Shown here: piece by piece, positions 15,007 to 22,085 of the stretch
Numbering within the stretch: the stretch's first letter is position 1
How the letters are laid out: each line of letters begins with the position of its first letter
IMG/VR virus record: IMGVR_UViG_3300048839_000489
Span: 64,001 to 86,085 of that record
Strand: one strand, 5' to 3'
Length of the DNA: 22,085 nucleotides
DNA from: a virus
Made by a program: the position numbers and the translations under genes
Notes under the pieces: model-generated
Database searches by the model: none
Told to the model about the DNA's origin: nothing
The model's input: only the letters and a program-made list of their open reading frames with translations

Positions 15007-15024
15007 CAAGAGTTAGTATTTGAG

Positions 15025-15098
15025 TAGGGACGACAGGATTTGAACCTGCGATCTCTTGCTCCCAAAGCAAGCGCGATGCCGGACTACGCTACATCCCT
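15025..15098 (-). tRNA. tRNA-Pro(UGG)
   Basis: A 7-bp acceptor stem (AGGGATG with CGTCCCT), anticodon loop TTTGGGA, T-arm GCAGG/CCTGT with loop TTCAAAT. Discriminator A, no encoded CCA. It is the last tRNA of the array in the direction of transcription, just before the polymerase leader. Confidence 0.93.
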
Positions 15099-15428
15099 AA
15101 GTTTTTTTATTATTTTTTTTTACGAATCTATCTACAACCATTTTTTTTAAATTTGCTAGTTTCTAAGATTCTCTTTGTCTATAAGATACTGACTTTAGGA
15201 AGTATCTTATAGTTAAGCTCTTAAATTAATCACTTAAAGAGCTCTTAAGATCTTAAGGGGTGAGAGAGATTCATTTTAGGACGGAGACGCGTTTAATAAA
15301 ACAGATTTAGCGTCTGCCATTTCTTACCCTAGCTTATAGGTTATAGACGGTTATCCAGAAGTAACCCGCTAGGGCAAGGTTACTTGTTCTTACACCGTTA
15401 GGTAGGAACAATGATTAACTTATACCTT
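15099..15428 (-). ncRNA. Untranslated, hairpin-rich leader or ncRNA (possible origin region)
   Basis: No plausible gene lies in these 330 bases, which start just downstream of a perfect promoter. On the RNA, in order: TTGTTC/GAACAA hairpin (15411-15384); GTAACC/GGTTAC hairpin (15383-15361), whose loop GCCCTAGC-type bases (15374-15368) can pair 7 bp with 15333-15327, a possible pseudoknot; AGACGC/GCGTCT (15315-15285); overlapping palindromes AAGAGCTCTT and CTTAAGATCTTAAG (15237-15257); and a perfect 10-bp hairpin 15181-15210. TTATCCAGA at 15351-15359 on the plus strand is one base from a DnaA box. It could be a regulatory RNA, a leader controlling the polymerase, or an origin. No U-tract terminator is seen. 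Confidence 0.5.
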
Positions 15429-15457
15429 ATTATACCACGAAATTCTGTATCTGTCAA
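15429..15457 (-). promoter_or_regulatory. Consensus promoter, copy 2
   Basis: TTGACA (15457-15452), 17-nt spacer ending CGTGG, TATAAT (15434-15429) on the minus strand. Spacer and flanks nearly match the promoter at 6701-6729. It drives the structured leader, tRNA-Pro and the polymerase. Confidence 0.9.
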
Positions 15458-15487
15458 GGGTTTAAAGTTAAGTGTTAGATTAGAAGG

Positions 15488-15559
15488 CGGCTCTAAGGGG
15501 ACTCGAACCCCTGCAATCTCTTCGACAGAGAGATGTCATAACCTCTAGACCATAGAGCC
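15488..15559 (-). tRNA. tRNA-Asp(GUC)
   Basis: Acceptor GGCTCTA/TAGAGCC fully paired, anticodon loop CTGTCGA, T-arm AGGGG/CCCCT with TTCGAGT loop, discriminator G. No encoded CCA. Confidence 0.95.
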
Positions 15560-15565
15560 ATCATA

Positions 15566-15667
15566 TTACTGAAAGTGGGTAAGTACATACGAAACTGCCC
15601 AAAGAGCTAATGCCAGAACAGATAATCCTAACAAGACAATTCCTACAACCTTAAAAAAGTTTTTCAT
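15566..15667 (-). CDS. 33-residue single-span membrane protein
   Basis: The ATG at 15667 has AAGGAG at 8 nt and gives a 33-residue protein. It has a basic N-terminus (MKNFFK), then a hydrophobic run from about residue 7 to 29 (VVGIVLLGLSVLALALWAV), then a short polar tail. It would span the membrane once with the N-terminus inside. A longer frame starting inside the upstream tRNA is an artefact. It ends 6 nt before tRNA-Asp. It is one of several tiny membrane-protein genes placed between tRNAs here. Function unknown. Confidence 0.65.
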   Translation of the reverse strand: MKNFFKVVGIVLLGLSVLALALWAVSYVLTHFQ

Positions 15668-15692
15668 ATCACATACTCCTTTCTTTTTATAG

Positions 15693-15767
15693 TGCGACTG
15701 GCAGGAGTTGAACCTGCAAACACTTCGTTTTAAGCGAAGTAGGTATGCCAATTCCCTTCACAATCGC
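15693..15767 (-). tRNA. tRNA-Leu(UAA) with a short variable loop
   Basis: Acceptor GCGATTG/CAGTCGC, anticodon stem CTTCG/CGAAG around CTTAAAA, T-arm GCAGG/CCTGC, discriminator A. The variable loop is only TGTTT (5 nt), where tRNA-Leu normally has a long class II arm. Confidence 0.85.
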
Positions 15768-15772
15768 GCACA

Positions 15773-15845
15773 CTACAGAGTGTACTGTATCTTCCGTCAA
15801 TTAATGTACATTGATGCCACTTAATAAGGCATGAAGACTCTGTAG
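15773..15845 (-). ncRNA. Inter-tRNA structured spacer G
   Basis: Closed by a 9-bp perfect stem, CTACAGAGT (15773-15781) with ACTCTGTAG (15837-15845). Inner pairs are ATGCC/GGCAT and TCAAT/ATTGA. The stem starts 4 nt after the tRNA-Leu(UAG) 3' end and ends 5 nt before tRNA-Leu(UAA). No ACAGCAA motif. Confidence 0.5.
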
Positions 15846-15849
15846 GTAG

Positions 15850-15931
15850 TGCATCTAAGAGGGGTCGAACCTCCACTTCCGAAGAAACATGTTCCTAAGA
15901 CATGCGCGTCTGCCAGTTCCGCCATAGATGC
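15850..15931 (-). tRNA. tRNA-Leu(UAG)
   Basis: Acceptor GCATCTA/TAGATGC, anticodon loop CTTAGGA, a normal class II variable arm (CTTC/GGAAG-type stem), discriminator A. It is a useful contrast to the two Leu tRNAs lacking the arm. Confidence 0.95.
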
Positions 15932-15941
15932 AATTTATTTA

Positions 15942-16118
15942 TTATTTAGAAGAATCGCTCTTCTTTTCTTGTTTAGCTATAACCGTTGAGTCTTCTTTAC
16001 CACAGGTAGCACATCTGATCCCAGACTTGCCATTCATTCCCATAGGATTGAAAACCCTCTTTCCCTTACCATATAGCTTGTCCTGATACTCATTTACACA
16101 AGTACACTTGTAAATCAT
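15942..16118 (-). CDS. Small zinc-ribbon protein
   Basis: 58 residues from the ATG at 16118, with GGAGG 5 nt upstream. The protein reads KCTCVNEYQDKLYGKGKRVFNP and then RCATCGKED: CTC at residues 5-7 and CATC near 36-39. This cysteine-paired zinc knuckle with YQD..YG.G.RV.N is a conserved phage pattern I have seen in many genomes without assigned function. The tail is lysine/serine-rich. It overlaps nothing and follows the tiny membrane-protein gene upstream by one base, so both are co-translated. Confidence 0.75.
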   Translation of the reverse strand: MIYKCTCVNEYQDKLYGKGKRVFNPMGMNGKSGIRCATCGKEDSTVIAKQEKKSDSSK

Positions 16119-16119
16119 A

Positions 16120-16242
16120 TTAACCTCCAGTCGCAAAAGTCAAGAAAACAAACCCACCAATCAGCAAGCTTGAAAAGATAACCCACACAACTCCCCACAC
16201 ATCACTTTCAGTAGTTTCTCCAGAAAGAATTCTTCTAATCAT
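16120..16242 (-). CDS. 40-residue single-span membrane protein
   Basis: The ATG at 16242 has AAGGAG 5 nt upstream and gives 40 residues: a polar N-terminus (MIRRILSGETTESD), then a hydrophobic span at about residues 15-36 (VWGVVWVIFSSLLIGGFVFLTF). The TAA sits inside the ribosome binding site of the zinc-ribbon gene that follows. It resembles the other tiny membrane genes of the array in size and layout only. No family is recognised. Confidence 0.6.
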   Translation of the reverse strand: MIRRILSGETTESDVWGVVWVIFSSLLIGGFVFLTFATGG

Positions 16243-16269
16243 AGCATCTCCTTTTTTTTTGTTTTAAAC

Positions 16270-16329
16270 GGACTTCGTTTGTGCACTAACACCAATTGTA
16301 AGCTGAATTTTTTTTGCTGTATGAAGTCC
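16270..16329 (-). ncRNA. ACAGCAA hairpin element, copy A
   Basis: RNA order: GGACTTC (16329-16323), 2 nt, ACAGCAA (16320-16314) followed by an A-run, about 37 nt, then closing GAAGTCC (16276-16270), 7 bp. It starts 3 nt after the tRNA-Gly 3' end. Confidence 0.6.
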
Positions 16330-16332
16330 TAG

Positions 16333-16403
16333 AGAGGGCATTGGGACTCGAACCCAATTCATCTGCTTGGAAGGCAGAGGCACAGCCCATATACCATACC
16401 CTC
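16333..16403 (-). tRNA. tRNA-Gly(UCC)
   Basis: Acceptor GAGGGTA/TGCCCTC, anticodon loop CTTCCAA, T-loop TTCGAGT, discriminator U. Compact (71 nt) with a normal short variable loop. Confidence 0.94.
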
Positions 16404-16408
16404 ATGGA

Positions 16409-16489
16409 GGCTTATCGTAACCACCACGCTGACATTTATCGACATTCAGTGTCGTAATTTTTGGAGCAGGATCTCCGCGGTTATTAGCC
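16409..16489 (-). ncRNA. Structured spacer H between RlaP and tRNA-Gly
   Basis: The two ends can pair as GGCT (16409-16412) with AGCC (16486-16489) and TAACC (16418-16422) with GGTTA (16479-16483). Between them are a CGACA/TGTCG hairpin and a GGAG/CTCC hairpin. The stem takes in the RlaP stop codon. Weaker than the other spacer elements. Confidence 0.35.
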
Positions 16490-17251
16490 TAAGCGGTTCA
16501 CCTGCATGATTGTATCCAGTAGAAAGTTATCCAGTTCGGTTGTATCATGATTAGTAACACCACCTCTTTCTGGCTTTAGTTCTACTAGCTTACTGTTTAT
16601 ATACTCTGACAGTAGCTCAGACTTTTTGGACTTTCCAAGTTCCGCCCCAGACTTTTTTGCCTCCACTAGATTCAAAATTTCGTTTTTTACCTCAGCGTCC
16701 ATGTCTATCTTTTCGATAGTCTGTAGGAAGCTGGTTGGAGGCATCCTGTCAAACTTATTGATGTACTCAATAGCTATCAGAGGTCTAAGAACATAAAGGT
16801 ATTTTTTCATGCTTACAACCTCTTCACTAAGATACCTAGCGAAATTACCTCTTGCCATATGATAGTAGTGATACTTACAGGTTGTTGCATTGTAGAAAAC
16901 ATTAGAAAGGTCAACAAGTTGATTGTAAAACGTCTCGTCTTTTCTGTACACTTTAGGGGAATTTATCCACTCCATAAGCGTAGGGTTATATTTTTCCAGG
17001 AGTCTAAGTGCTTTATCAAGACTCCAGCCGTTGACATCCAGAACTTTATTCACCGGAAGTTCTATAACGTCTCTGCCCCTATATATTTTAAAGTAATGTT
17101 CAGGACTCGGTGCATATATAAATCTGACATCAAAGTCACTATCTACAGAGTCAAAACCCCATGCGCGACTTCCAGATTCACATGCATACAGAATCTTTAC
17201 TTTATGCTCTTTTTCTATGTCGTCAAGTATTTTGTTTATTCTTTCTTCCAT
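16484..17251 (-). CDS. RlaP-type nucleotidyltransferase (RNA-repair polymerase-beta family)
   Basis: 255 residues. The N-terminus has the polymerase-beta-like signature ESGSRAWGFDSVDSDFDVRFIY: G27-S28, then metal acids D39 and D41. The family-specific DVIELPVNKVLDVNGWSLDKALRLLEKYNPTLMEWINSPKVY follows at about 61-101, and a helical C-terminal half. This is the RlaP family (RNA ligase-associated nucleotidyltransferase, COG3541). It is found with RNA ligases, RtcB-type and Ro-type genes and is proposed to act in RNA repair. AAAGGA lies 7-8 nt before the ATG. Its place inside a tRNA array and next to a Ro60-like gene suggests tRNA end repair or extension. No RNA ligase is in the window. Family secure, substrate inferred. 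Confidence 0.88.
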   Translation of the reverse strand: MEERINKILDDIEKEHKVKILYACESGSRAWGFDSVDSDFDVRFIYAPSPEHYFKIYRGRDVIELPVNKVLDVNGWSLDKALRLLEKYNPTLMEWINSPKVYRKDETFYNQLVDLSNVFYNATTCKYHYYHMARGNFARYLSEEVVSMKKYLYVLRPLIAIEYINKFDRMPPTSFLQTIEKIDMDAEVKNEILNLVEAKKSGAELGKSKKSELLSEYINSKLVELKPERGGVTNHDTTELDNFLLDTIMQVNRLG

Positions 17252-17267
17252 AGCGATTCCTTTCGTG

Positions 17268-17340
17268 TAGCGGGTCTGGAAATTGAATCCAGCTTTTATG
17301 GCTTATGAGGCCATTTAGACATCCTTGCCTACCACCCGCT
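17268..17340 (-). tRNA. tRNA-Met(CAU) (elongator Met or Ile2)
   Basis: Acceptor AGCGGGT/ACCCGCT fully paired including position 1-72, so it is not an initiator. Anticodon loop CTCATAA. A CAU anticodon could be elongator Met or lysidine-modified Ile; this cannot be settled by eye. Confidence 0.88.
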
Positions 17341-17342
17341 AT

Positions 17343-17498
17343 TTAAATAAATAATGTGGAAAAAAGAAATCCACAAACCCCAACAAATAACGATAGAACG
17401 AGGTCTGTCAACTCGTTCTTAATCTTACCTCTTTCTATTTGACTAATTCTGTAATATATTACAGACACTAAAACTCCTATTTCTATGCTGAGTATCAT
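17343..17498 (-). CDS. 51-residue protein with two hydrophobic segments
   Basis: The ATG at 17498 has AAGGA 5 nt upstream. Translation gives 51 residues. A hydrophobic N-terminus covers residues 2-16 (ILSIEIGVLVSVIYY), a charged linker (RISQIERGKIKNELTD) follows, and a second hydrophobic segment covers 33-51 (LVLSLFVGVCGFLFSTLFI). It would form a small hairpin in the membrane. The stop lies 3 nt before tRNA-Met. No family is recognised. The good Shine-Dalgarno and clean fit between two tRNAs support it. Confidence 0.6.
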   Translation of the reverse strand: MILSIEIGVLVSVIYYRISQIERGKIKNELTDLVLSLFVGVCGFLFSTLFI

Positions 17499-17525
17499 TT
17501 AGTCCTTACTTGTCTCTTTTCATTG

Positions 17526-17610
17526 TGGATAGGGCAGGAGTCGAACCTGCAACGAAAACTTTCGGGCTGATTTACAGTCAGTTGAGTTCACCAATTCTCA
17601 ATGCCTATCC
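17526..17610 (-). tRNA. tRNA-Tyr(GUA)
   Basis: Acceptor GGATAGG/CCTATCC, anticodon loop CTGTAAA, a normal class II variable arm, discriminator A. Confidence 0.94.
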
Positions 17611-17617
17611 AAAAAAC

Positions 17618-17667
17618 AGACTGCTTATTTTACCTAGAGTTGGTTTTTTTTTTGCTGTTTGCAGTCT
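17618..17667 (-). ncRNA. ACAGCAA hairpin element, copy B
   Basis: RNA order: AGACTGC (17667-17661), 2 nt, ACAGCAA (17658-17652) followed by an A-run, about 27 nt, closing GCAGTCT (17624-17618), 7 bp. It begins 2 nt after the 3' end of the UAU-type tRNA. Confidence 0.65.
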
Positions 17668-17669
17668 AG

Positions 17670-17742
17670 TACTCCTCGAGGGACTCGAACCCCCAACCAA
17701 CCGTTAATAGGACGGGTGCTCTCACCATTGAGCTACAGGAGT
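17670..17742 (-). tRNA. tRNA with UAU anticodon (Ile?), non-canonical
   Basis: D-arm GCTC/GAGC, T-arm GGGGG/CCCTC and acceptor ACTCCTG/GAGGAGT are clear. The structural anticodon loop is CCTATTA, giving UAU (Ile, AUA codons). It has C33 instead of U33, a G-G mismatch at 7-66 and C-U at 27-43. It may be a specialised or decaying tRNA. Confidence 0.65.
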
Positions 17743-17755
17743 ATTTGTAATATTC

Positions 17756-17914
17756 GGGAGGAGGTCAGGTCGCTCATCTGTGCGCTTGTTTAGCGAAGGT
17801 TTATAAACGTCTCTATAAACTGCTTGCACATCAGTGCCACGCGCCATTCTTCCTACTCCTCCGAGCAGGAGTACTTCACGCCTTAGTTGACGGGATGCCC
17901 TCACTGCTCCTCCC
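17756..17914 (-). ncRNA. Structured RNA downstream of the Ro60-like gene (Y-RNA-like candidate)
   Basis: About 159 nt, distinctly more GC-rich than its surroundings, filling the gap between the Ro60-like stop and the next tRNA. The ends pair as GGGAGGAG (17914-17907) with CTCCTCCC (17763-17756), extended inward by CAG/CTG after a 2-nt bulge. Inside are a 7-bp hairpin TACTCCT/AGGAGTA, a 7-bp hairpin GTTTATA/TATAAAC and a GCAC/GTGC hairpin. End-to-end pairing with a bulged stem beside a Ro-like gene is how bacterial Y RNAs are organised. A GTG-started 60-codon frame (17722-17904) also runs through it with an AGGAGG upstream, ending inside the tRNA. A small protein is thus the rival reading. Confidence 0.5.
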
Positions 17915-17924
17915 TCCTATTCAG

Positions 17925-19361
17925 TTATAAAATTACTACTCTTGCGTATCTTTCTGACAACAAAGTTCTTGTCATAACGCTTACAGGATTAACTTCACCA
18001 CTTAGTACGTTCTTCATAATGCTAGGTGAAAATCCTGATACCAAAGCTGTGCCATCCTTGTTATAGGATACAGGCACTCCTACAGAAGTTCTTAGGTTCC
18101 AGAATACAGTGTTTGGTACTCTGTATCCAGCCTCAGCATACTTTCTTTCGATTACATCCATAGCAGTTTCTGAATAAGCACCTACTGCCTCATTGAATTG
18201 CATGTCTGATAGAATTAGGATGTCGTCAGGCATTTCGCTCTGAGCTACACCGTTTCTTACAGCACTATTTAGAATAAGGTCAAATACGGCTACGATGTTT
18301 GTTGATTGAGTCCAACCGGAGGTTAGAAGCTGGTCAATTCTATTTGCTAGATTACCAGACAAAACCTGTAATGTAGGACTGGTTGAGAATGTAATGAACG
18401 CATCCTTGAATGCACCAACGTTTCTCTGTGATATATAAATACCTAACGCTACTGATGCTAGGATTGGAAGAGCGTCTCCCATCATCATGCTTCCTGACAC
18501 ATCACACACAGGTAAAATCTTTCTATCTGTGTTTACGTAGTTTGGAAGAGACGACCATTGAGCCTCCAATACATCGTCAAAAGCCTTTACACCATACTTG
18601 TATGTTGACTTGCTATAGGTGTATGCTCTGATAATGTCGTGTGGATAAATAGCTCCGGCATTAATCTTGTTGCCGGAATTTGGACTTGACAAAGACTTAG
18701 CCCAAGCACCAAATCTGCTACCATCTCTTAGAGTATAAGCATTTCTGTACTTATTGATTGCCTTTGAAGGAACTGTGCTGTAGTCAATTCTGTTCCACTC
18801 GTTGTTGCACATAAGAGTCTCAACTACCTTGGTAGCAGAAGACAAAAGCCTTCTATACTTCTTAGGCTTAATTCCCCAGATGGAGATCAAAGCCTTAGCC
18901 AAGCTTCCTTGACTCTTATTCTCTCTAGGCATCCACTTAGCACAAAGAGCGTTTCCCTTGTTCAACTCTTCCCAGATCATGGAAGCTACACTATCTTCGA
19001 TAGGAGTTCCCAAACCTACTAGAACATCGTCCCACCTTCCGTAGAAGGGAACATTGTATAGGTTAGCCTGAGCGTCATCAGGATGATTTCTACAAAGCCA
19101 CGCATACATAATTCTGAAAGTACGGCGACTTCCTTGACCCTCTCTAACATCTCTGTTGTAAAACAAAGACTTCAAAGCCAACTCTCTATTTTCGTAGAAG
19201 GCGTTTGAGAATACTGAACGAATAGTAGACTCGTCTACACCGTCATTCCACCCACCCATCTTGAAGAATAAATCCAAGTTCTTGTTTCCAGAAGATGAGT
19301 TTGTCACCATACCGTTTTCAGTACGAGTATTTCTTGTCTGCATTGCGTTTAAAAGTGACAT
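17925..19361 (-). CDS. DUF2828/Ro60-like RNA-binding ring protein with vWA domain
   Basis: 478 residues. The N-terminal two thirds is helical with SLFYNRDVREGQGSRRTFRIMYAWL near 65-89 and NVPFYGRWDDVLVG near 103-116. These are the DUF2828 signatures, related to the TROVE HEAT-like ring of Ro60. The C-terminus is a von Willebrand A domain with an intact metal site: DVSGS at 287-291, T354 in QSTN, and D386 in ILSDMQF. Ro60-type proteins bind misfolded RNAs through the ring and Y RNAs on the outside, in RNA quality control or decay. Here it sits inside a tRNA array, with an RlaP gene and structured RNAs on both sides. Its Shine-Dalgarno (AGGA, 7 nt before the ATG) lies in the closing stem of an ACAGCAA element, suggesting autoregulation. 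RNA partners unproven. Confidence 0.8.
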   Translation of the reverse strand: MSLLNAMQTRNTRTENGMVTNSSSGNKNLDLFFKMGGWNDGVDESTIRSVFSNAFYENRELALKSLFYNRDVREGQGSRRTFRIMYAWLCRNHPDDAQANLYNVPFYGRWDDVLVGLGTPIEDSVASMIWEELNKGNALCAKWMPRENKSQGSLAKALISIWGIKPKKYRRLLSSATKVVETLMCNNEWNRIDYSTVPSKAINKYRNAYTLRDGSRFGAWAKSLSSPNSGNKINAGAIYPHDIIRAYTYSKSTYKYGVKAFDDVLEAQWSSLPNYVNTDRKILPVCDVSGSMMMGDALPILASVALGIYISQRNVGAFKDAFITFSTSPTLQVLSGNLANRIDQLLTSGWTQSTNIVAVFDLILNSAVRNGVAQSEMPDDILILSDMQFNEAVGAYSETAMDVIERKYAEAGYRVPNTVFWNLRTSVGVPVSYNKDGTALVSGFSPSIMKNVLSGEVNPVSVMTRTLLSERYARVVIL

Positions 19362-19493: not shown

Positions 19494-19495
19494 AG

Positions 19496-19568
19496 TGCCT
19501 CCGCAGGGATTTGAACCCCGAACCAATCGCTTAAAAGGCGACTGCTCTATCCGTTGAGCTACAAAGGC
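19496..19568 (-). tRNA. tRNA-Lys(UUU)
   Basis: Acceptor GCCTTTG/CGGAGGC (two G-U), anticodon loop CTTTTAA, T-loop TTCAAAT, discriminator A. Confidence 0.94.
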
Positions 19569-19594
19569 AAAAAAAATGCTAGTCTTTCCTAGCA
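19569..19594 (-). terminator. Weak intrinsic terminator-like hairpin with U8
   Basis: On the minus strand TGCTAG pairs with CTAGCA around a 6-nt loop (19594-19577), followed by eight U (19576-19569). The stem is only 6 bp and the U-tract abuts tRNA-Lys(UUU). No promoter is seen before that tRNA, so partial termination or a 5' leader hairpin is likely. Confidence 0.4.
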
Positions 19595-19628
19595 GTCACA
19601 GGTCTACACCCTGTCGTAAAGGAGGATA

Positions 19629-19647
19629 AAATGCCAAAAGCATTTTG
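19629..19647 (-). other. Hairpin directly after tRNA-Leu(CAA)
   Basis: AAAATGC pairs with GCATTTT, a 7-bp perfect stem around a 5-nt loop, 1 nt after the tRNA 3' end. It follows the same rule of stems just past tRNA 3' ends but lacks ACAGCAA. Confidence 0.4.
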
Positions 19648-19721
19648 TGGGCAAGGGAGGATTTGAACCTCCAAAACACTATTTTTGAGATAGTTACGTA
19701 TGCCAGTTCCGTCACAAGCCC
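19648..19721 (-). tRNA. tRNA-Leu(CAA) with short variable loop and acceptor mismatches
   Basis: Anticodon stem ACTAT/ATAGT around CTCAAAA, T-arm GGAGG/CCTCC, discriminator A. The variable loop is GTTTT (5 nt), not a class II arm. Acceptor GGGCTTG against CTTGCCC has tandem U-U mismatches at 5-68 and 6-67. Confidence 0.8.
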
Positions 19722-19891
19722 TAAAGTCTGTGGTCGTGAAAATTATAAATCCTTCTATCGTATGGACTTCTAGTAAGTGGGGAGTATACAACTCCTGGGA
19801 CTAAGAAAGAAAATACCACTAAAATTAACAGTAATCCGAGTGCTATGTATACCGGTAAAAATAGTGAAACTATAAGTTTTTTTATTCGCAT
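19721..19891 (-). CDS. 56-residue single-span membrane protein
   Basis: The ATG at 19891 has AAAGGAG 5 nt upstream. Translation gives 56 residues: a basic start (MRIKK), a long hydrophobic span at about 6-36 (LIVSLFLPVYIALGLLLILV onward), then a polar tail with YDRRIYNFHDHRL. The TAG overlaps the first base of tRNA-Leu(CAA), and tRNA-Ile(GAU) lies 19 nt upstream. No family is recognised. The excellent ribosome binding site and exact fit between tRNAs support a real gene. Confidence 0.65.
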   Translation of the reverse strand: MRIKKLIVSLFLPVYIALGLLLILVVFSFLVPGVVYSPLTRSPYDRRIYNFHDHRL

Positions 19892-19909
19892 TTTACTCCT
19901 TTCTTATTG

Positions 19910-19981
19910 TGCAGATGGAAGGACTTGAACCTTCGACCAATGACGTATCAGATCACTACTCTACCACTGAGCTACACCTGC
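19910..19981 (-). tRNA. tRNA-Ile(GAU)
   Basis: Acceptor GCAGGTG/CATCTGC, anticodon loop CTGATAC, T-arm GAAGG/CCTTC, discriminator A. Confidence 0.94.
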
Positions 19982-19986
19982 AAGAC

Positions 19987-20046
19987 AGACTGCTTCAATT
20001 AGTATCCATAAAAGGGAAAGTTGATTTGGTTTGCTGTTAGCAGTCT
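19987..20046 (-). ncRNA. ACAGCAA hairpin element, copy C
   Basis: RNA order: AGACTGCT (20046-20039), 1 nt, ACAGCAA (20037-20031), about 36 nt, closing AGCAGTCT (19994-19987), 8 bp. It begins 2 nt after the tRNA-Lys(CUU) 3' end and ends 5 nt before tRNA-Ile(GAU). Confidence 0.65.
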
Positions 20047-20048
20047 TG

Positions 20049-20122
20049 TGGCACTGAGAGGACTCGAACCTCCGACACGATGATTAAGAGTCATCTGCTC
20101 TAACCAACTGAGCTACAGAGCC
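20049..20122 (-). tRNA. tRNA-Lys(CUU)
   Basis: D-arm GCTC/GAGC, anticodon loop CTCTTAA, T-loop TTCGAGT, discriminator A. The acceptor GGCTCTG/CAGTGCC has one U-U mismatch at 4-69. Confidence 0.9.
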
Positions 20123-20253
20123 ATATTATTTTGTAAACCGGATAGGTTTCTTCTATCCTAAGATAATGAAAGTATAAAAAAGCTAGTGTTGGTATGCAAG
20201 CTAAAATAACAATCACTAACAGTAGAATTACACATAAGATTATTTTTTTTCAT
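20100..20253 (-). CDS. Small membrane protein with an A8 frameshift site at its start
   Basis: The ATG at 20253 has AAAGGA about 6 nt upstream and is followed at once by eight A (20250-20243). In the annotated frame the product is a 31-residue, non-hydrophobic peptide ending at 20158. If one A is skipped, the frame reads MKKIILCVILLLVIVILACI and onward, a basic start and strong membrane span. It then has a polar tail (HYLRIEETYPVYKIIW) and ends inside tRNA-Lys(CUU) at 20100. The second reading matches the other tiny membrane genes of the array. It may use transcriptional or ribosomal slippage on the A-run, be a broken gene, or reflect a homopolymer sequencing error. Coordinates here give the shifted reading. 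Confidence 0.45.
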
Positions 20254-20268
20254 TGCTTCCTTTCTAGG

Positions 20269-20336
20269 CGGTCAGTAAAGGAGTCGAACCCTTTCATACG
20301 GATTTGGAGTCCGCTTTGCTCCACAGCATACTAACC
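20269..20336 (-). tRNA. tRNA-Trp(CCA), short D-loop
   Basis: Acceptor GGTTAGT/ACTGACC, anticodon loop CTCCAAA, T-loop TTCGACT, discriminator G. Only 68 nt: the D-loop is reduced to GTGG between TGCT and AGCA. Confidence 0.9.
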
Positions 20337-20341
20337 ACAGG

Positions 20342-20413
20342 AGGACAAGCTGAGAATCGAACTCAGACTCTATTCTTACCAAGAATATGTGCTACCTTTA
20401 CCACTACAAGTCC
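20342..20413 (-). tRNA. tRNA-Thr(GGU) with acceptor mismatches
   Basis: Anticodon stem TATTC/GAATA around TTGGTAA, T-arm CTGAG/CTCAG, discriminator U. Acceptor GGACTTG against CTTGTCC has U-U at 5-68 and 6-67, the same two mismatches as tRNA-Leu(CAA). Confidence 0.9.
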
Positions 20414-20415
20414 AT

Positions 20416-20481
20416 GACGGTTTTTCTTTTCAAAGACACAACCAGAGCTCCCAATGAGATGCTTGTGTACGAGGAACCGTC
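20416..20481 (-). ncRNA. Inter-tRNA structured spacer F
   Basis: Closed by GACGGTT (20481-20475) with AACCGTC (20422-20416), 7 bp. A nested ACACAA/TTGTGT stem lies inside. A second small hairpin (CTCT/AGAG enclosing GAGC/GCTC) lies at about 20484-20512, between this element and tRNA-Ala. No ACAGCAA. Confidence 0.5.
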
Positions 20482-20518
20482 GAAACTCTCGGAGCAGTGC
20501 TCGTCAGCAGAGGCTCAG

Positions 20519-20592
20519 TGGATGTGACAGGACTCGAACCTGCAACCCTCTCCGTGCAAAGGAAATGCTCTCCCAATTAGAGCTACACACCC
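20519..20592 (-). tRNA. tRNA-Ala(UGC)
   Basis: Acceptor GGGTGTG/CACATCC, anticodon loop TTTGCAC, T-arm GCAGG/CCTGT, discriminator A. Confidence 0.94.
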
Positions 20593-20603
20593 AAAATATT
20601 TTT

Positions 20604-20921
20604 TTATTTCTTATATAAATCTTCGTAAGTTTTTATGTTGTGACAGTTTGAACAGAGAAGTTGAAGTGTTGTTATGTTTACCTTACCCAATAAAATTAGT
20701 TGATGAAGCCTAGCCCCCTTTTCAGTAGCAAGAATTCCTTTGTTTCCTCTTCTTAGTGGAACTATGTGATCTATTTCAAGAGCCCTTACATCATCTTTAT
20801 ATCCACACCTAACACACTTACCTCCAAGCAACTCTATAACTTTATGTTTGTTCATGACCCTGTATTTTCTATGAGCCGTTCTTTGATACTCTTTTCTTTT
20901 TTCTTTGTCAATAATAGGCAT
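20604..20921 (-). CDS. HNH endonuclease
   Basis: 105 residues. The HNH core is GGKCVRCG (C36, C39), LEIDHIVPLRRGN (D51, H52) and LQLLCSNCHNIKT (C90, C93, H94), a treble-clef fold with structural zinc. The N-terminus is basic and helical (KEKRKEYQRTAHRKYRVMNKHK), as in free-standing homing HNH enzymes of phages. AAGGA precedes the ATG at 9 nt. It is inserted between tRNA-Ala and tRNA-Val and may have brought in neighbouring tRNAs by homing or recombination. No intron is seen. It could also be a nicking enzyme for packaging, but it is not near terminase genes. Confidence 0.88.
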   Translation of the reverse strand: MPIIDKEKRKEYQRTAHRKYRVMNKHKVIELLGGKCVRCGYKDDVRALEIDHIVPLRRGNKGILATEKGARLHQLILLGKVNITTLQLLCSNCHNIKTYEDLYKK

Positions 20922-20943
20922 TTTAATATGTCCTTAAGTTAAG

Positions 20944-21016
20944 TGGACAACCAGAGACTTGAACTCCGAACCTTCTCTGTGTAAAAGAGATACTCTGACC
21001 ATTGAGTTAGTTGTCC
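20944..21016 (-). tRNA. tRNA-Val(UAC)
   Basis: Acceptor GGACAAC/GTTGTCC, anticodon loop TTTACAC, T-arm CGGAG/CTCTG, discriminator A. Confidence 0.94.
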
Positions 21017-21026
21017 ATACTCGGAA

Positions 21027-21278
21027 TTATCCGAGTTCGTCCTCGTCATCTTCGGCTGACTCCGCCAAAAGTCTTGAAATAACTTTATCGTAGTAGCCCA
21101 TCATTTCAAGGTGGCTATCAGCCTCCCTTGATTTTGAGTCTGCGTAATCATAGTTACCGTTTGTTCGAGCGTTGCTTGCTTTTTCAGTGCATTCATTGTA
21201 CTTTTTAGCGTGCTTATCGTAAGCCGCCTGAGCTCTTTCCAACGGAGTTCCGAACAAATTACCAAAAAAACCTGACAT
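21027..21278 (-). CDS. Small charged unknown protein
   Basis: 83 residues, ATG at 21278 with AAGGAG at 8 nt. The start is short and glycine/phenylalanine-rich (MSGFFGNLFGTP). Helical segments then follow, rich in Ala, Lys, Glu and Asp (RAQAAYDKHAKKYNECTEKA; ADSKSREADSHLEMMGYYDKVI). The tail is strongly acidic (ESAEDDEDELG). It probably forms a helical hairpin or coiled coil. No family recognised. It sits alone between tRNA-Val and tRNA-Phe. Confidence 0.65.
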   Translation of the reverse strand: MSGFFGNLFGTPLERAQAAYDKHAKKYNECTEKASNARTNGNYDYADSKSREADSHLEMMGYYDKVISRLLAESAEDDEDELG

Positions 21279-21317
21279 AGATTAATCTCCTTTTCTTACT
21301 AAATTTTTACTTACTAG

Positions 21318-21389
21318 TGCGACCAGAAGGTAACGATCCTTCCTACTCGATTCTTCAGATCGAAGCTAATCCGTCTCAGCTACAGTCGC
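21318..21389 (-). tRNA. tRNA-Phe(GAA) with unusual T-loop
   Basis: Acceptor GCGACTG/TGGTCGC, anticodon stem TCGAT/ATCGA around CTGAAGA, T-stem GAAGG/CCTTC, discriminator A. The T-loop is ATCGTTA, with A54 and U58 instead of the universal U54 and A58. Confidence 0.85.
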
Positions 21390-21536
21390 AAAGCCTCTAT
21401 TTTTTTTCTTCTTTACTTTATCTGCTCTTTTTATAATAATCTCTTGAATTAGAAAGGTGCTTTTTCCAGAGACTACCATTCCGTTCCTTTTCTTACGTCT
21501 TTTCTTATCGCGGCTGTTTGCTTTGTTTATCTTCAT
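21366..21536 (-). CDS. 56-residue basic protein overlapping tRNA-Phe
   Basis: The ATG at 21536 opens a 56-residue frame. It has a very basic N-terminus (KANSRDKKRRKKRNG), then MVVSGKSTFLIQEIIIKRADKV, then more lysines. I recognise the RKKRNGM.V.G.S.F.IQE...KRA pattern from small unannotated phage proteins. The last eight codons lie inside tRNA-Phe. The promoter at 21549-21577 would start RNA only about 6 nt before the ATG, so translation would be nearly leaderless. Alternatively it depends on read-through from upstream, or on the internal ATG (residue 20), which has AAGGAA before it. Probably nucleic-acid-binding; no function known. Confidence 0.55.
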   Translation of the reverse strand: MKINKANSRDKKRRKKRNGMVVSGKSTFLIQEIIIKRADKVKKKKNRGFATVAETD

Positions 21537-21548
21537 CGTTATAATCCA

Positions 21549-21577
21549 ATTATACTACATATGCCCTACTTAGTCAA
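21549..21577 (-). promoter_or_regulatory. Promoter within the end of the upstream gene
   Basis: TTGACT (21577-21572), 17 nt, TATAAT (21554-21549) on the minus strand; one mismatch in the -35. The -35 lies within the last codons of the gene at 21566-21844. It drives the basic 56-residue gene and the tRNA array from tRNA-Phe onward. Confidence 0.85.
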
Positions 21578-21844
21578 TACTTTTACATTAGAAGAAGATA
21601 AGTATTCCCTTTCTAGCAGTGATACTAAATCATAATCTTCTATAAAGTACAGGCTAGTGCCTTCTACAAAGTTGCCTATAAGCTGTCCCAGGCGCAGTTC
21701 TGGGTAGGTCTGCCAAAGACTTAGAAGTCTAGCTATTACAGCCTTCTTTTCTTCCTGCGTAACAGCCCTTCTATATGTCCTTCTTTGGCTATCTACATCA
21801 TAACCCAATTCTTCGAGTATCACGTCTTGCTTAGATTTGCCCAT
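21566..21844 (-). CDS. Unknown phage protein with RLGQLI motif
   Basis: 92 residues from the ATG at 21844, with GAGG about 6 nt upstream. It starts MGKSKQDVILEELGYDVDSQRRTYR, then a helix with LLSLWQTYPELRLGQLIGNFVEG, then FIEDYDLVSLLEREY. The LW...PELRLGQLI.N......F...D..L...L arrangement is common in phage and bacterial small proteins of unknown function (DUF1040/YihD-like in part). It probably folds as a helical bundle. The stop overlaps a promoter for downstream genes. The gene stands between tRNA-Arg and that promoter. Confidence 0.75.
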   Translation of the reverse strand: MGKSKQDVILEELGYDVDSQRRTYRRAVTQEEKKAVIARLLSLWQTYPELRLGQLIGNFVEGTSLYFIEDYDLVSLLEREYLSSSNVKVLTK

Positions 21845-21871
21845 TAGTTACCTCACTTTTCTTTTCAATAG

Positions 21872-21944
21872 CGCACTCAGAAGGAATCGAACCCTCACTC
21901 GTATAGTCCGTAGCTATATGTTTTATCCATTAAACTATGAGTGC
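21872..21944 (-). tRNA. tRNA-Arg(ACG)
   Basis: Acceptor GCACTCA/TGAGTGC, anticodon loop CTACGGA, T-arm GAGGG/CCTTC, discriminator G. A34 would need host TadA to become inosine. Confidence 0.94.
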
Positions 21945-21947
21945 ATA

Positions 21948-22027
21948 ATGCAGGAGGCTGGAACGTTTATACGGAGTAGTTACTTTTCTTACGTTATCTT
22001 TCCGTGACCGCACTTGTGATCCTGCAT
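21948..22027 (-). ncRNA. Inter-tRNA structured spacer E
   Basis: Closed by ATGCAGGA (22027-22020) with TCCTGCAT (21955-21948), 8 bp perfect, spanning 80 nt. It starts 2 nt after tRNA-Cys and ends 3 nt before tRNA-Arg, filling the gap exactly. No ACAGCAA motif. Confidence 0.5.
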
Positions 22028-22029
22028 AG

Positions 22030-22085
22030 AGAGCCTAATGGGAGTCGAACCCATAGTCACGGTTTTGCAGACCGTAGCCTTTACC
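22030..22085 (-). tRNA. tRNA-Cys(GCA), 5' end outside window
   Basis: The visible part has anticodon stem ACGGT/ACCGT around CTGCAAA, T-arm ATGGG/CCCAT with TTCGACT, acceptor 3' strand TAGGCTC and discriminator U. The 5' acceptor and part of the D-arm lie beyond the edge. Confidence 0.9.

Follow-up and report, generated by a model that had tools for sequence, protein, structure and literature searches.

Does a phage that brings its own tRNAs into the cell also maintain them, and can it do so without an RNA ligase of its own? The question is raised by a 22,085-nucleotide stretch of viral DNA, analysed here as a whole and called the window (bases 64001-86085 of the 86,085-base IMG/VR virus record IMGVR_UViG_3300048839_000489), in which genes for an RlaP-family nucleotidyltransferase and a Ro60-like protein lie inside one tRNA array. 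The link of RlaP and phage Ro60 proteins to RNA repair has so far come mostly from genome context. Here we propose, with a probability of roughly one half, that the array serves to supply and maintain tRNAs, with RlaP carrying out end-repair and the Ro60-like protein surveillance, possibly as a counter-defence against the host. The two central genes are:

16484-17251, minus strand: RlaP-family Pol-beta nucleotidyltransferase, 255 amino acids, with GSRAWG...D39xD41 (PF10127, phrog_14344)
17925-19361, minus strand: Ro60-like RNA-binding protein (DUF2828 plus DUF7788 vWA), 478 amino acids (PF11443, PF25043, phrog_850, AlphaFold2 model)

The family assignments made for both proteins in the original prediction are borne out by full-length matches with E-values far beyond chance, and neither protein falls into another family. 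The first protein matches PF10127 over residues 1-246 of 255 (E=1.9e-80, 270.6 bits, cut-off 23) and phrog_14344 with E=2e-73. The GSRAWG of its predicted GSRAWGF motif and the D39/D41 pair are present and vary little or not at all across 10 phage homologues, with the Pol-beta nucleotidyltransferase active-site residues G27, S28, D39, D41 and D72 invariant throughout. Homologues occur in 84 phage records; among those with a name, the closest come from phiKZ-like, Burkholderia, Brevundimonas and Caulobacter jumbo phages, at approximately 33-42% identity (about 40% for the phiKZ-like ones). A single-sequence scan of IMG/VR yielded no near relative of RlaP and only one of the Ro-like protein, so that alignments were needed for both, and PADLOC matched neither gene. 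The name RlaP stems from an association with RNA ligases, and the PF10127 profile does not demand one.

The second protein matches DUF2828 (PF11443; E=1.2e-32, 113.7 bits, cut-off 29), DUF7788 (PF25043; E=5.5e-48, 163.6 bits, cut-off 27.1) and PHROG 850, 'RNA-binding protein' (E=5e-127), a type of protein found in 682 phage records and in some of them annotated as Ro-like or Ro sixty-related. The vWA metal site is intact, as had been claimed: the residues of the metal ion-dependent adhesion site (D287-x-S289-x-S291, T354 and D386) show no variation across 35 homologues. An AlphaFold2 model built from 35 window and IMG/VR sequences (predicted local distance difference test, pLDDT, 80.5) retrieved nine chains with Foldseek at E<=1e-5, all of them Ro60/TROVE. 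In VIA-align it superimposes on Ro60 (1yvr) with Z 18.3 and a root-mean-square deviation of 4.2 over 408 aligned residues, and on the Ro60 of phage phiLo (9l5y) with Z 17.1, vWA-only chains scoring well below these at Z ~11. The model thus has the fold of Ro60, a helical-repeat ring plus vWA, yet by profile the protein is not a member of the TROVE family, PF05731 giving no match at E<=0.01.

The stretch between the two genes was originally described as two tRNAs and one tiny gene. The tiny gene stands, as an open reading frame (ORF) of 51 amino acids, while the tRNAs number three (Met, Tyr and Ile). The array continues on both sides, and its features in the window are:

15024-16403, minus strand: tRNA-Pro, tRNA-Asp, tRNA-Leu(UAA), tRNA-Leu(UAG) and tRNA-Gly, the array segment 3' of RlaP (ARAGORN, Rfam)
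17267-17340, minus strand: tRNA-Met(CAU), between RlaP and the Ro-like gene (ARAGORN; missed by Rfam at its gathering score)
17343-17498, minus strand: 51-amino-acid ORF, weakly holin/membrane-like, between RlaP and the Ro-like gene (PF16083, below its cut-off)
17525-17610, minus strand: tRNA-Tyr(GUA), between RlaP and the Ro-like gene (ARAGORN, Rfam)
17669-17742, minus strand: tRNA-Ile(UAU), between RlaP and the Ro-like gene (ARAGORN, Rfam)
19495-21944, minus strand: tRNA-Lys, tRNA-Leu(CAA), tRNA-Ile(GAU), tRNA-Lys(CUU), tRNA-Trp, tRNA-Thr, tRNA-Ala, tRNA-Val, tRNA-Phe and tRNA-Arg, the array segment 5' of the Ro-like gene (ARAGORN)

ARAGORN identifies 18 tRNAs in the window, 16 of which are recovered by Rfam at gathering score (the exceptions being Met 17267-17340 and Phe 21317-21389); Rfam also matches one tRNA cut by the window end, which is the tRNA-Cys included among those at the record start. 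In the remainder of the record, of which L001 and L002 are parts, 11 further tRNAs lie at the record start (L001:71-4883) and a single isolated tRNA-Arg at L002:8956-9029. The record begins and ends with the same 127 bases (window 21959-22085 and L001:1-127), so that the contig closes on itself and most likely represents a complete genome. Although IMG/VR classifies the record as linear, the genome is hence probably closed, circular or circularly permuted, with a length of about 85,958 bp. Once the ends are joined, the array runs across the circular junction to the 11 tRNAs beyond it, and the genome total becomes 30 tRNAs, which together serve all 20 amino acids; 29 of them lie in one array of roughly 12 kb. 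HNH and homing-endonuclease-like genes are also found inside the array (window 20604-20921, L001:2483-2869).

The original prediction also called for a ligase encoded outside the window to complete the module, and this was not borne out. A six-frame search of this probably complete genome returned no match at E 10 to PF09414 (RNA_ligase, Rnl2 type), PF09511 (RNA_lig_T4_1, Rnl1) or PF01139 (RtcB), and the accompanying search for a Pnkp-type polynucleotide kinase with AAA_33 matched only RecA. Outside the structural region, most of the large ORFs with no assignment were scanned against PHROG, Pfam and NCBIfam; these scans likewise contained no ligase, returning instead DNA methyltransferases, a primase, a ribonucleotide reductase, a clamp loader, an NT5C-type HAD phosphatase and an amidoligase/glutamine-amidotransferase cluster. 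A scan for the K-x-[DNHE]-G motif identified no ligase either, and a divergent one in an orphan ORF is possible. Two candidates were examined and set aside. The 339-amino-acid ORF at L002:317-1336 contains KCEG, but it matches no family and nothing convincingly in the PDB, and modelled on its own it is too poorly folded to interpret (pLDDT 31.6). The PHROG 'polynucleotide kinase' at L001:8994-9521 is really a HAD phosphatase, with NT5C as its best Pfam match. The amidoligase cluster itself (L001:17040-18819 and L002:2100-5212) comprises two amidoligase-type proteins (COOH-NH2 ligase and Amidoligase_2), a RimK-like ATP-grasp protein and two glutamine amidotransferase-type proteins, and may serve the phage in forming peptide bonds or in tagging. 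In a survey of 30 records, mostly RlaP carriers, 18 encode a ligase from one or more of the families Rnl1, Rnl2 and RtcB. A ligase-less RlaP phage is nonetheless not unique in the sequence record: phages PA7 (G011) and Eowyn (W01) carry RlaP without any of the three families.

As has been argued for jumbo phages, host anticodon nucleases cut tRNAs during infection and phage tRNAs replace them; RlaP has been proposed to restore nucleotides lost at the break, ligases to reseal it and TROVE/Ro proteins to act as an RNA repair platform (PMC7824862). From the two families and their active sites, the predicted Ro60 fold, the array, the closure of the contig and the absence of known ligase families, we infer a related scheme for the present locus. 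During infection, every one of the 20 amino acids would be served by tRNAs that the phage encodes. RlaP would re-add nucleotides to the ends of tRNAs cut or trimmed by host anticodon nucleases or exonucleases. The Ro60-like ring would bind structured RNAs whose 3' ends are damaged or aberrant, perhaps together with a structured RNA partner encoded by the phage, and either hold them for repair or hand them to a host exonuclease. With no RNA ligase recognisable in the phage genome, the rejoining of tRNA halves would be left to a host ligase, or cut tRNAs would be replaced without resealing. The original prediction that this phage both replaces and repairs or polices its tRNAs is hence supported as regards the protein families, the kind of module and its co-occurrence elsewhere, but not as regards the ligase. 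As a concept, phage RNA repair with tRNAs, RlaP, TROVE and ligases had already been published for jumbo phages (PMC7824862), and the present locus is a ligase-less variant of it.

Judged from gene content in 50 RlaP and 50 DUF2828 records, the pairing of RlaP with a Ro-type protein is real but rare. True TROVE is present in nine of the 50 RlaP records and lies at most 3.5 kb from RlaP in four, Halogranum tailed virus 1 (HGTV-1) and the IMG/VR records L036, L083 and L099. TROVE, a helicase and RlaP form a single run in L036; RlaP is followed by tRNA-Thr and tRNA-Phe and then by TROVE in L099; and the two genes are convergent, with tRNAs beyond, in L083. Random placement would be expected to yield 0.55 such cases, and four or more with P=0.0009. 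Three of the nine RlaP and TROVE records are related Dolichocephalovirinae, none of which is among the four close cases. Furthermore, RlaP and RtcB overlap by 4 bp next to 21 tRNAs in contig L031 (10001-15935), and in L033 (6035-14051) a run of 19 tRNAs stops 76 bp before RlaP, with RtcB two ORFs later. This recurrence of RlaP beside TROVE, RtcB and tRNA arrays counts for the supply-and-maintenance reading. DUF2828 genes, for their part, adjoin tRNA arrays in Felix O1-type phages and in several IMG/VR contigs.

A number of results weigh against that reading. The co-occurrence beyond this genome that had been anticipated holds for RlaP and TROVE, but RlaP and DUF2828 seldom share a record and are nowhere else adjacent in the sample: DUF2828 is present in one of the 50 RlaP records (Fusobacterium phage Fnu1, with the two genes far apart), and RlaP exceeds its cut-off in two of the 50 DUF2828 records, KVP40 (a weak match) and G057, which also has 53 tRNAs, Rnl1 and Rnl2. 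Over 30 records, DUF2828 lies no nearer to tRNAs than expected by chance (Wilcoxon p=0.54). The activity predicted for RlaP derives, in the literature, from genome context, and a sequence search found no solved RlaP structure. To these points are added the lack of known ligase families and of a recognisable polynucleotide kinase in the genome, and the lack of any match to a Y RNA family of Rfam in the window, its strongly folded non-coding stretches notwithstanding. Some of these data are also what would be expected if there were no functional link at all, the array being a landing site for unrelated accessory genes in which RlaP and the Ro-like gene came to lie side by side by chance, each with a role of its own. 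The rarity of the RlaP and DUF2828 pair, the position of DUF2828 relative to tRNAs and the presence of HNH-type genes in the same array are all consistent with this explanation, which we nevertheless consider doubtful, because it accounts neither for an RlaP-TROVE closeness in four virus records that exceeds random placement nor for the recurrent blocks of RlaP, RtcB and tRNAs.

The structured RNA partner invoked in the supply-and-maintenance reading could be sought in two non-coding stretches of the array:

15099-15457, minus strand: candidate non-coding RNA gene in the tRNA array (promoter scan, folding z=-5.6, no long ORF)
17743-17924, minus strand: folded GC-rich spacer of 182 nucleotides directly 3' of the Ro-like gene (z=-3.2; guanine-plus-cytosine, GC, content 0.51)

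The first opens with an extended sigma-70 promoter (15457-15429, minus strand) that has 12 of 12 consensus positions, a 17-nucleotide spacer and the TG element, and the 324 nucleotides that follow it (15099-15422) are strongly folded and interrupted by stop codons in every frame of the minus strand. The region matches no Rfam family and is a candidate for an abundant phage non-coding RNA. The second, with a GC content of 0.51 against 0.39 for the window, is closed by a GGGAGGAG/CTCCTCCC stem and overlaps a 60-amino-acid ORF (17722-17904) that has a good ribosome-binding site, so that it is possibly a Y-like RNA or a small protein gene. The spacers beside other DUF2828 genes give mixed folding z-scores, and may in part correspond to tRNAs and terminators.

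These stretches also admit a reading in terms of RNA decay instead of repair. The Rsr protein of Deinococcus redirects an exonuclease such as PNPase to structured RNA. By analogy, the Ro-like protein and a phage Y-like RNA (from 15099-15422 or 17743-17924) could redirect a host exonuclease, for instance PNPase, to structured RNA, while RlaP would tag 3' ends for decay or storage. The full-length Ro60 fold predicted for the protein and the presence of strongly folded non-coding stretches and a consensus promoter inside the array fit such a role. In Listeria phage CKA15, furthermore, abundant unannotated transcripts with strong promoters lie near tRNAs and an Rsr-like gene and have been proposed to be Y RNAs (PMC12282133). 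This explanation seems unlikely, given that no Y RNA family is matched, that RlaP is accompanied elsewhere by ligases, and that near-relative searches of IMG/VR found no close relative of the phage with which covariation of the candidate RNAs could be assessed.

The 3' ends of the tRNAs bear on what RlaP might do in a maintenance locus. None of the 30 tRNA genes encodes CCA, while all 30 have C74, followed mostly by TA, AA or CT. This pattern is not a detection artefact, because ARAGORN still finds all 18 window tRNAs when C74 is changed. The CCA-less tRNAs of phage contigs L115, L116, L129, L173 and L175 show nearly the same pattern, and C74 looks like a general rule in CCA-less phage tRNAs. 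RlaP might then finish or maintain the 3' ends of the CCA-less tRNAs of the phage itself. We regard this as very improbable, however well it matches the tRNA genes of this genome: DUF2828 phages without a detected RlaP likewise have CCA-less tRNAs and the tRNAs of RlaP contigs L031, L033 and L039 mostly encode CCA, which together argue against RlaP being a CCA enzyme, and host CCA-adding enzymes would be enough. Improbable too is a minimal, ligase-independent system in which RlaP rebuilds or finishes CCA-less 3' ends and the Ro60-like ring, with a phage Y-like RNA, sorts damaged tRNAs; if it existed, tRNA supply and end-care would take the place of ligation.

The presence of both proteins in an array serving all 20 amino acids, with no known ligase in the genome, separates end-restoration and surveillance from ligation, and the roles of RlaP and the Ro60-like protein should for that reason be easier to test singly. 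The locus hence raises the question of whether phages reseal cut tRNAs, or merely replace and polish them.

A close published parallel is the RNA-repair set of jumbo phages (Iyer et al. 2021, PMC7824862), in which tailed phages likewise combine tRNA arrays with RlaP and a TROVE/Ro protein, and which has been interpreted as repair against host tRNA cleavage. In those phages, however, RNA ligases occur in step with RlaP, whereas the present phage has no known ligase, is with its 86-kb genome not a jumbo phage, and carries a Ro protein of DUF2828 type. A Ro protein is also tied to the response to tRNA damage in the bacterial rsr-yrlBA-rtcBA operon, which responds to cut tRNAs (PMC7790460); that operon has RtcB/RtcA, Y RNAs and RtcR regulation, while in the phage RtcB and an Rfam Y RNA were not found and RlaP is present instead. 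In HGTV-1, the RlaP and Ro genes (126 and 129) lie on the same strand with two genes between them, an arrangement akin to the one described here, but this is an archaeal virus with a Ro protein of the classical TROVE plus vWA_Ro60 type, RtcB and three Rnl2-type matches. The Felix O1-like phage wV8 resembles the present phage in its 88-kb genome and in a DUF2828 gene 165 bp from an array of 20-odd tRNAs; it differs, as do nearly all other DUF2828 phages sampled, in having no RlaP, and tRNAs of Felix O1-like phages such as wV8 encode CCA. Lastly, the Ro60 of Thermus phage phiLo (9l5y) and the TROVE-domain entry 9kop are called TROVE by their depositors and share approximately 13-15% identity with the Ro-like protein, with a marginal sequence match (E 0.005), yet both present a phage Ro60 fold that the model of the Ro-like protein reproduces with Z 17-18.

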